Below, one piece after another: positions 11,604-14,135 of a stretch of 46,045 nucleotides of DNA. The stretch is from a virus. Every line of letters begins with the position of its first letter. Position 1 is the stretch's first letter. The notes under the pieces were generated by a model. The model ran no database searches and was not told the DNA's origin. It saw only the letters and a program-made list of their open reading frames with translations. The stretch spans positions 1 through 46,045 of the IMG/VR virus record IMGVR_UViG_3300017971_000093; one strand, 5' to 3'. The position numbers were made by a program, and so were the translations under genes.

Positions 11604-12631
11604 CCGACACGCAAACCGAAGCCCTCGTCCCGAAGAACGTCGGCGAAGCCTTGTGCGTGACCTACCGCAAGGACTTCGAGTCGGCGCTCAACTACGAGAT
11701 GATTTCCGGCCACCTGAAGTTTGAACCGTTCATGGCTGCTGTGAAGCAGGACGTGCTCAACAACCAAGGGCTGGCCGAAGCGTTCCAGTCGTCCCCCGGC
11801 AGCGCCATCAACGCGCTGCTGATGGCGGCGCAATGCAAGCTGTTGCCTGGCAGTTCCTACGACCTGTTCTACCTGATCCCACGGTGGAACGGCCGACGCA
11901 AGTGCAAGGAGGTCCAGCCGATGATCGGCTACAAGGGCATGTGCGAACTGGCGCAGCGGCACCCGCGCGTTCACAAGATCGAAGCGTTCTGCGTCTACGA
12001 GGGCGAAGAGTTTGAGTTCCGCCCCGGAGAGGGCAAGGTCATCCACAAGTTCGGCTTGGACGTTGACCGCTCCGACGAAAACCTGATCGCCGCCTACGCT
12101 CGCGTCGTCATCACCGACCCTAGCGGCCACCACCCGATCATGGACGACCCCGTCGTCTGGGTGATGTCCCGCAAGGAACTGGAGAAGTCGCGCGGGCGCA
12201 GCGATGCGTGGAAGAACGCTGAGAGCAAGGGTTGGAACAACAGCCCGTGGCACACCGACTTTCCGATGATGTGCCGCAAGACCGTGCTCCGAGCCGTGCT
12301 GACCAAGGGGTCGGTGCCGAAGGACATGGGCGTCGGCGGCGTCATCCAGCAGGACGACAAGGCTGACCTGATCGAGAAGCCTTTGCCGCTACCGAAGCCG
12401 AGCAAGCAGGACGGCATCCGTCAGAAGCTCGGCATCGACGAGTCGATTCACTTCGAGTTAGTCGAAGAGGCCGTCGCCGCCGTGGAGCAAGCGGCATCCA
12501 AGGAAGACCTCAAGCGTCTGCGCGGGGGATGGCAACACTTTGAGGGGATCGACGCGGAGACGATCGCCAACGCATACGAGGACAAGCTCGCCGCTTTCGA
12601 GTGGAAGGAGGACGGCAATGCACCTGCCTAA
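11600..12631 (+). CDS. recT: RecT-family single-strand annealing protein
   Basis: A 343-residue protein read from the GTG at 11600, which overlaps the upstream stop. RecT features: an early segment (FEPFMAAVKQDVLNNQGL), the SSPGSAINALLMAAQCKLLP block, the characteristic PMIGYKGMCELAQRHP strand-helix, VYEGEEFEF, AYARVVITD, and the DFPMMCRKTVLRAVL block before a variable acidic C-terminus. It should anneal complementary single strands made by the exonuclease encoded upstream. The C-terminal 60 residues are variable in this family and overlap the next gene by 14 bases. Confidence 0.9.
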   Translation: MTDTQTEALVPKNVGEALCVTYRKDFESALNYEMISGHLKFEPFMAAVKQDVLNNQGLAEAFQSSPGSAINALLMAAQCKLLPGSSYDLFYLIPRWNGRRKCKEVQPMIGYKGMCELAQRHPRVHKIEAFCVYEGEEFEFRPGEGKVIHKFGLDVDRSDENLIAAYARVVITDPSGHHPIMDDPVVWVMSRKELEKSRGRSDAWKNAESKGWNNSPWHTDFPMMCRKTVLRAVLTKGSVPKDMGVGGVIQQDDKADLIEKPLPLPKPSKQDGIRQKLGIDESIHFELVEEAVAAVEQAASKEDLKRLRGGWQHFEGIDAETIANAYEDKLAAFEWKEDGNAPA

Positions 12632-12959
12632 GCGTCTGACTAAGGAGGATCTGCGGAAGCAAATCCTCAAGCTGGAGATGGAGATGCACCAGCAGCGGCT
12701 CGACAACATGAACCTGCGTCTCTGCGCGGATAACTGGTTCGAGAACCTGCGGGATCTGATGGCGATGCCCGCAGGAGGCCGAGACGTGTTTGCCAGTTCC
12801 GACCTCGTCGGCCAGGAGGAGTTGTTCAAGATTCAGGACAAGCTCGCGAAGATGACGCTTGCGGCTGCGCAGCGGGTCAACCGGCAGAAGGAACTGGTCA
12901 AGCAGTTCCACTGGATCTACTCGTTCGAATCGGAAGACGAATCCAAAAAGGATGCGTGA
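12618..12959 (+). CDS. Small coiled-coil protein, 113 aa
   Basis: The ATG at 12618 follows a strong AAGGAGGA Shine-Dalgarno located inside the end of recT. Residues about 8-35 are a charged, methionine-rich probable coiled coil (ILKLEMEMHQQRLDNMNLRL), and the C-terminus is acidic. No known family. The end overlaps the methyltransferase start by 8 bases, so it belongs to the same operon. Confidence 0.7.
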   Translation: MHLPKRLTKEDLRKQILKLEMEMHQQRLDNMNLRLCADNWFENLRDLMAMPAGGRDVFASSDLVGQEELFKIQDKLAKMTLAAAQRVNRQKELVKQFHWIYSFESEDESKKDA

Positions 12960-13863
12960 GATGCACCTGTTTGCCGGTGTGGGCGGCGGCATTCTTGGCG
13001 GGATGCTGCTCGGCCACCGGCCCGTGTGCGCTGTAGAGATTGACCCGTTCTGTCGCGACGTGCTTCTGGCGCGTCAGGCAGACGGGTCTTTGCCTTTGTT
13101 CCCGATTCACGATGACATCAACACCTTCAACGCCAACGCCTGGCAAGGGCGAGTGGACATTGTTGCGGGCGGGTTCCCCTGCCAAGACCTGTCGGCCGCG
13201 AACTACAAAGCCCAAGGGCTCGCCGGGGCAAGGTCTTCTCTTTGGTTCGAGATGTTACGGGTCGTCAACGAGTGTCGGCCCCGGTTCGTCTTCGTCGAGA
13301 ACAGTCCGGCCATTCGGACCAGAGGACTGGCAACGGTCCTCGAGGGGCTTGCCGGAAGCGGGTATCATGCGGCGTGGGGCGTGCTCTCCGCACAAGCGGT
13401 TGGTGCCCCTCACGTTCGCAAGCGAATGTGGATCCTGGCAGAGAATCCCGACGCCTGTTGCGAACGACTCGAAGAACACGCGCAACGCAACGGCGCAACG
13501 GTCGCCGGGGAAGAGCGCCAATCCAGGGGTGACGCTGTGCGACTACGTGCTGATGGCGACGCCAACGGCGAGAGATTGGCGGTCCGGCAAGGCGAGCGCG
13601 GCGACGCATGCGAGGAACAGCCGTCCTTTGTCGGAACAGATCGGCGGCTACCTGAACCCGGACTGGGTGGAGCTTCTGATGGGATGGCCGCGTGGATGGA
13701 CGAACCCCGACGATGGCTTGCCGGATGGGACGAAGGCATGAGCAAGGTTACGTCGAGCAGGCACAACCGAACCAAGCGCCTGCGGTCGATTGGCAACGGT
13801 CAGGTGCCGCTGTGCGCGGCGGAAGCGTTCCGCGCCCTTCGTCGCCGTCTGGAGCAGACATGA
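12952..13863 (+). CDS. DNA cytosine-5 methyltransferase (alpha frame)
   Basis: A 303-residue protein with m5C methyltransferase motifs in order: I, LFAGVGGG (6-13); IV, GGFPCQDLS with catalytic Cys77; VI, FVENS (114-118); VIII, HVRKRMWIL (154-162); X, IGNGQVPLC (280-288). The segment 164-265 between VIII and X lacks an obvious motif IX, but this frame still shows the EPGLGG...DG...W.D signature of phage m5C enzymes. Motif IX-type sequence lies in the +1 frame of the same DNA (13445-13741), described separately. The enzyme should methylate cytosine in phage DNA to block host restriction. No restriction partner is seen. Start at 12952; the stop overlaps the next gene (ATGA). Confidence 0.88.
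   Translation: MREMHLFAGVGGGILGGMLLGHRPVCAVEIDPFCRDVLLARQADGSLPLFPIHDDINTFNANAWQGRVDIVAGGFPCQDLSAANYKAQGLAGARSSLWFEMLRVVNECRPRFVFVENSPAIRTRGLATVLEGLAGSGYHAAWGVLSAQAVGAPHVRKRMWILAENPDACCERLEEHAQRNGATVAGEERQSRGDAVRLRADGDANGERLAVRQGERGDACEEQPSFVGTDRRLPEPGLGGASDGMAAWMDEPRRWLAGWDEGMSKVTSSRHNRTKRLRSIGNGQVPLCAAEAFRALRRRLEQT
13367..13741 (+). CDS. Putative methyltransferase beta polypeptide in the +1 frame (target recognition/motif IX)
   Basis: In the frame one base ahead of the methyltransferase, 13445-13741 encodes PTPVANDSK, MATPTARDWRSGKA, THARNSRPLSEQIGG and LNPDWVELLMGWPRGWT. These are the hallmark target-recognition and motif IX segments of phage m5C methyltransferases. An ATG at 13367, preceded by GGAAG, would give 124 residues. 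The frame ends in a TGA overlapping an in-frame ATG of the alpha frame (13738). The known precedent is M.EcoHK31I/M.EaeI, where a beta subunit carrying motif IX is coded in another frame inside alpha. Two compensating indels are the alternative explanation. Confidence 0.6.
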   Translation: MRRGACSPHKRLVPLTFASECGSWQRIPTPVANDSKNTRNATAQRSPGKSANPGVTLCDYVLMATPTARDWRSGKASAATHARNSRPLSEQIGGYLNPDWVELLMGWPRGWTNPDDGLPDGTKA

Positions 13864-14135
13864 TCGACGACGACACGCTGCGCGACTTGGCTAGTCGGTT
13901 GTCGGTGGCAGAGATTGCGGCCGACGTTGGTTTGTCGCAACGCAGGGTGCGGACGCGGCTCGGCCAACTCGGCATTCGAGCGCAGCCAGGCATGCGCGCT
14001 CCGCTCGCCGACGCGGACATCCTCGAGGATCTGCGCGAGCTAGGATCGGTCGAGGCCGTGGCCGCGCGCTATCGCGTGAGTCGGCAGGCGGTCTACTGGC
14101 GGATGAGACGCCTAGGGGGCGGCGAGGGGCGCTAG
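13860..14135 (+). CDS. Double helix-turn-helix regulator
   Basis: A 91-residue protein whose ATG overlaps the methyltransferase stop (ATGA). It holds two similar HTH units: SVAEIAADVGLSQRRVRTRL (residues 15-34) and SVEAVAARYRVSRQAVYWRM (63-82). Two tandem HTHs in so small a protein suggest a DNA-binding repressor or switch recognising a direct repeat. As last gene of the recombination operon it could regulate either adjacent operon. Codon use is noticeably GC-rich, like the block that follows. Confidence 0.75.
   Translation: MIDDDTLRDLASRLSVAEIAADVGLSQRRVRTRLGQLGIRAQPGMRAPLADADILEDLRELGSVEAVAARYRVSRQAVYWRMRRLGGGEGR

Follow-up and report, generated by a model that had tools for sequence, protein, structure and literature searches.

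The locus beginning at position 12,952 of the window (the whole stretch analysed, 46,045 nucleotides of the viral record IMGVR_UViG_3300017971_000093) very probably encodes, judging from its sequence, an M.EcoHK31I-type m5C methyltransferase made of two subunits, both specified by one stretch of phage DNA. The alpha subunit would bind AdoMet, attack the target cytosine with the motif IV catalytic cysteine and be connected to motif X by a flexible linker, and beta, read one base later, would supply the small, DNA-binding domain made up of the recognition region and motif IX; alpha and beta would associate into one active enzyme. Two frames are present, both show homology to methyltransferases, and in relatives both are under selection. 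In the window, beta would be made as a separate protein and bind alpha, and the enzyme is probably an orphan protecting phage DNA from host restriction, since the genes examined include no recognisable restriction enzyme. The contig is that of a tailed phage with terminase and major head genes, and RecE- and RecT-like genes lie upstream of the alpha gene. The small ORF immediately upstream (Table 1) has no significant family match; its TGA sits just within alpha, which suggests that the two are translationally coupled.

The initial annotation had described an open frame of 303 codons carrying motifs I, IV, VI, VIII and X, and the motif positions between 12970 and 13809 bear this out: motif I is FAGVGG (12970-12987), motif IV FPCQ (13174-13185), motif VI ENS (13297-13305), motif VIII RKRMWI (13417-13434) and motif X GNGQVP. 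PF00145 matches alpha over residues 2-168 (E 3.6e-29), and TIGR00675 scores 78.9 bits, under its cut-off of 100.65, with the match ending at about residue 165-168. As both matches stop by residue 168, the alpha frame lacks the recognition domain and motif IX. The family phrog_363 matches residues 1-297, and the predicted alpha fold resembles M.HaeIII and M.HhaI (approximately 171 columns aligned).

The missing parts are found in the +1 frame, which lies wholly within alpha. A stop-free +1 stretch at 13445-13741 with a segment of the SRPLSEQIGG type, closed by a TGA overlapping an alpha ATG at 13738, had been noted before; both features are there (ATG 13738-13740, TGA 13739-13741), yet the frame is longer, opening at 13037 after a TAG at 13034-13036, and its upstream part covers most of motifs I-VIII. 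The beta-frame modules PTPVANDSKN (13448-13477), TPTARDWRSG (13559-13588) and RPLSEQIGG (13622-13648) are followed by the motif IX-like block NPDWVELLMGWPRGWT, the DNA of which (13655-13702) reads EPGLGGASDGMA in the alpha frame. Beta matches phrog_1008, "DNA methyltransferase" (E 1.9e-16), and reaches 67.3 bits with a recognition/IX profile made from relatives alone, the window being excluded; no other translated stretch of the region, on either strand, matches this profile, and PDB sequence searches with beta gave no match. Profile comparison of the two translations, which the initial annotation had put forward as a check, is in keeping with its dual-coded reading, alpha following the m5C models to residue 168 and beta the recognition/IX profile. 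The 234 open codons of the +1 frame compare with a mean of 138-140 in 300 synonymous-codon shuffles (P ~0.04-0.05), a length that is only weakly unusual because the DNA is 64% G+C; the case therefore stands on the relatives and the profile matches.

Table 1. Features of the methyltransferase locus and its neighbours (window coordinates).
Feature	Position	Strand	Description or basis
Upstream small ORF	12621..12959	+	TGA 12957-12959 just inside alpha (ATGCGTGA)
Alpha, putative catalytic subunit of m5C methyltransferase	12952..13863	+	303 aa, motifs I-VIII and X
Beta, +1-frame ORF at largest extent	13037..13741	+	Target recognition region and motif IX; phrog_1008, recognition/IX profile
Candidate beta product from ATG 13112	13112..13738	+	209 aa, start scan
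Target recognition region, beta frame	13448..13654	+	TP.A.D modules PTPVANDSKN and TPTARDWRSG
Motif IX-like block NPDWVELLMGWPRGWT, beta frame	13655..13702	+	Sequence reading; relatives' entropy
Motif X (GNGQVP), alpha frame	13792..13809	+	Motif reading; AlphaFold2 confidence
Helix-turn-helix protein, downstream	13860..14135	+	ATG overlaps alpha stop (ATGA)

Alpha and beta, offset by one base, were both located by tblastn in Acinetobacter phage ABMM1, Microcystis phage Mel-JY01 and a Leptospira plasmid, and the same two-frame layout was read in fetched loci of Salmonella, Vibrio, Pseudomonas and Synechococcus phages as well as in two E. coli chromosomes, one copy being broken. We then considered 240 viral loci gathered with motif I-VIII alignments of three branches, sequence downstream of motif VIII playing no role in the choice; they include duplicates and close kin and hence do not represent 240 independent events. 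The recognition/IX part lies in the +1 frame in 226 of the 240 (73/80, 75/80 and 78/80 by branch), which supports the dual-coded reading. In the other 14, it is in the +2 frame (3 loci) or frame 0 (2 loci), or no match was obtained (9 loci, 7 of which end within 750 nt). The 4 of the 5 frame exceptions that were read closely (L304, L139, L243 and L274) look as if indels had disrupted or displaced both frames at once. Loci were classed with a profile restricted to recognition/IX; the full-length beta profile was dropped because the +1 frames of single-chain enzymes L346 and L348 also matched its N-terminal half. None of four single-chain controls (L346-L348 and L350) matches the recognition/IX profile. 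Among the 226 loci, selected on the N-terminal part, the alpha frame is intact through motif X in 205. This is the fair figure, as counts of alpha-frame stops in the recognition region (0, with 262 expected; 0 in 226 loci) are partly circular, the loci having been chosen or classed on an intact alpha. All 80 beta proteins compared match phrog_1008 and none matches a Pfam model. Bacterial genome contigs yielded one weak locus, in a genome without a profile match. Furthermore, distant methyltransferases beginning with YYNE(I/W)D, from a Rhodoplanes plasmid and Escherichia phages ESSI2_ev129 and ZCEC5 (L017, L117 and L349), have recognition/IX in the same +1 frame, so that dual coding extends past the clade of the window. 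Annotations mostly show one gene of the two, alpha being labelled methyltransferase in most records; both genes are annotated in Paenibacillus phages, and the beta frame only in Pseudomonas phages phPA-G and Shamal.

In these relatives, both frames are protein-coding, and which of them dominates depends on the part of the gene, as emerged from the substitution comparison that the initial annotation had proposed. Across the related pairs that allowed analysis, differences per site at alpha codon positions 1, 2 and 3 were 0.102, 0.043 and 0.214 over motifs I-VIII, 0.321, 0.208 and 0.197 over recognition/IX, and 0.124, 0.095 and 0.206 after motif IX. The most variable site is alpha position 3 over motifs I-VIII, alpha position 1 (the third position of a beta codon) over recognition/IX, and alpha position 3 again on the motif X side. 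The sharpest pair, L014 and L039, has 27, 5 and 1 differences at the three positions over recognition/IX, where alpha is 74% and beta 96% identical, and in the motif IX block of the relatives nucleotide entropy is 0.50, 0.49 and 1.00 by beta codon position. Over motifs I-VIII, the +1 frame of 68 relatives (11,020 codons) contains 0 stops against 183 expected from synonymous shuffles, the lowest count among 200 shuffles being 161, whereas stops in the third frame exceed expectation. Thus, the +1 frame is held open from the start in this branch, although the N-terminal part of beta is hardly conserved there beyond the constraint of alpha. The check for stops and indels in relatives likewise speaks against single chains split by indels.

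Some relatives place motif X in the beta frame, as in M.AquI: L067, L254, and the phages Eagle (L018), Firecracker (L115) and ArV1 (L116). In all of these, alpha ends after motif VIII and the former alpha frame contains stops. Given that the alpha frame is open when it carries motif X and interrupted when beta does, the alpha segment over the recognition region is suggested to be a linker bringing motif X to the catalytic domain. The AlphaFold2 model of alpha agrees with this reading, being confident over residues 1-175 and 280-303 (pLDDT 84-97 over 280-303) and below 50 over most of 205-279. The beta model (mean pLDDT 58.6) is best over recognition/IX and unconfident over most of the overlap with motifs I-VIII. 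Similar reasoning has been applied to split and circularly permuted M.SssI and M.MpeI, where attaching the C-terminal helix to the large domain was expected to keep split fragments folded, and where fragments divided between motif VIII and the recognition domain show good complementation (PMC5944983; PMC3404938). A separate motif X peptide, re-initiated at ATG 13738 after the beta TGA, was also considered and rejected as a shared feature, because in L014 the beta stop lies about 5 codons before that of alpha, beyond motif X.

How beta is started differs among relatives. The sequence NTG-A-ATG is found in 68 of 104 loci, with alpha opening NTG AAT GA and the beta ATG following 4 nt later. The Asn codon overlapping this ATG is AAT in all 91 distinct NTG-A-ATG starts, against 39% AAT elsewhere in alpha, indicating that the ATG of beta is preserved. 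Other branches rely on internal starts, and these have Shine-Dalgarno sites in L001, L005 and L007, which carry AAGGAG 9 nt before an internal ATG at alpha codon 89, and in L081, where beta can start only near codon 147, right before the recognition region. In the window, the TAG at 13034 excludes a start shared by alpha and beta and places it with the internal-start style; besides ATG 13112, the candidates are TTG 13349 (weak GAGG, spacing 3) and ATG 13367, and the start scan detected no strong Shine-Dalgarno site for any of the three, none being convincing. We regard it as somewhat more likely than not that the viral m5C methyltransferase clade, large, old and mostly annotated as single-gene, is dual-coded throughout, that in its biggest sampled branch a single ribosome binding site supplies both frames through the two NTG-A-ATG starts, and that the alpha segment stays open only as the motif X linker.

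The want of a convincing beta start in the window would suit a programmed +1 ribosomal frameshift near motif VIII, fusing motifs I-VIII to recognition/IX with or without a second shift to motif X, as would the canonical order of motifs along the DNA (VIII, recognition, IX, X). Such a frameshift is nevertheless unlikely: it requires neither a +1 frame open over all of motifs I-VIII, as in the 68 relatives, nor a conserved ATG 4 nt into the gene, it would take two shifts to place motif X in the same chain, and it does not sit well with the Shine-Dalgarno-equipped internal starts of L001, L005, L007 and L081. We consider it very unlikely that alpha alone is the enzyme, its own VIII-X segment recognising DNA and beta being an accessory or regulator. 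Alpha is indeed open across the region and carries the methyltransferase label in most records, but its VIII-X segment is predicted to be disordered, is more variable than beta on the same DNA, and loses its open frame once beta carries motif X.

The remaining explanations deny that the +1 frame is a gene of its own. It might be an untranslated shadow of the conserved alpha protein, given that its translation echoes alpha over motifs I-VIII, that the N-terminal half of the beta profile matches L346 and L348, and that +1 stops in L346 fall below those of its shuffles; this is highly improbable in view of the differences at beta third positions over recognition/IX, the usually better conservation of beta than alpha, and the failure of the recognition/IX-only profile to match any single-chain control. 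Alternatively, a single-chain gene might have been split around 13445 and 13740 by a pair of sequencing errors or by decay-related indels, as the window is a single contig without reads and joining the frames restores the canonical motif order. With the +1 layout present in isolated phages, on plasmids and in E. coli chromosomes as well as in 226 of 240 viral contigs, and both frames open although the third is stop-rich, this can be given next to no credence.

A two-subunit methyltransferase encoded in overlapping frames thus remains the preferred reading, and this kind of enzyme is already known, the window being a further case. In M.EcoHK31I, as in M.EaeI, the small gene is nested in a different frame of the large one, and the M.EcoHK31I literature places the recognition region in the large subunit. 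The likeness to M.EcoHK31I drawn by the initial annotation fits in all features tested, by nesting (13037-13741 within 12952-13863, +1) and by the division of motifs. The window differs in that the gene is from a phage and has no recognised restriction partner, and in that the recognition region is apparently in beta. As in the window, where the large ORF has I-VIII and X and motif IX is only in the small one, M.EcoHK31I has one polypeptide with motifs I-VIII and X and a second with IX (PMC3404938). M.AquI also consists of two polypeptides, the catalytic part being apart from recognition/IX (PMC3404938), but its motif X is in the small subunit, unlike that of the window (13792-13809, alpha); the relatives with motif X in beta have the M.AquI-like layout, but in overlapping frames. 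Unlike in single-chain enzymes such as M.HhaI and those modelled by TIGR00675, the motifs and the recognition domain are not in one frame, the recognition/IX profile matching only +1.

The idea of a phage example stood as regards the two-subunit reading, with the qualification that overlapping C5 methyltransferase genes had already been described in Streptococcus thermophilus phages of the 5093 group, with earlier streptococcal cases (an S. pneumoniae phage and Tn5252; PMC5601072). By their description, the 5093-group phages resemble the window in having two C5 methyltransferase products from different frames of the same phage DNA. The streptococcal enzyme L346, however, is single-chain, with motifs IX and X in one frame, so the streptococcal overlap and the window case may not be equivalent. 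The Paenibacillus phages Arcticfreeze (gp56/57) and Diva (gp49/50, "g49 internal gene") have a comparable +1 internal gene with recognition/IX but are distant from the window, with alpha approximately 27% identical and beta starting at an internal ATG after GGGAGG. Searches of open-licence papers gave no earlier description of how widely the arrangement occurs, of selection on both frames, of the start shared by both proteins or of the alternative placing of motif X; these are the new elements here. Long same-strand overlaps with conserved protein motifs in both frames are uncommon, and this one is found again at hundreds of viral loci and brings its own control, the alpha frame decaying after motif VIII when beta takes motif X. 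Many entries named "DNA cytosine methyltransferase" would lack the subunit that recognises DNA, a possible reason why recombinant proteins are inactive and specificity predictions fail. In shared-start relatives, the choice of the ribosome between starts 4 nt apart is directly testable.

Several relatives show local variation within the dual-coded DNA. (GA)n tracts occur in the recognition region of L003 (3613-3637), L004 (3614-3648) and L274 (3017-3050), with lengths of 25, 35 and 34 nt, respectively. Their lengths differ between the near-identical L003 and L004, in which both frames are open, and in L274 both downstream frames are shifted, resembling an "off" state; phase variation affecting both subunits at once, or assembly error, is possible. 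Runs of 11 G in the catalytic part of L045 (2749-2759) and L051 (2697-2707) are another possible slippage site. L106 (1201-1962; E. coli PCP07014) is a broken prophage copy with one stop per frame, near each other. In L028 (2974-3366), an HNH-endonuclease-like ORF is flanked by motif VIII and, downstream, by a repeated copy of the VIII stretch, and looks like a homing-endonuclease insertion. Finally, the close kin L001, L005 and L007 differ in their recognition modules (W.TP.A.D units), suggesting that modules are exchanged within dual-coded DNA.
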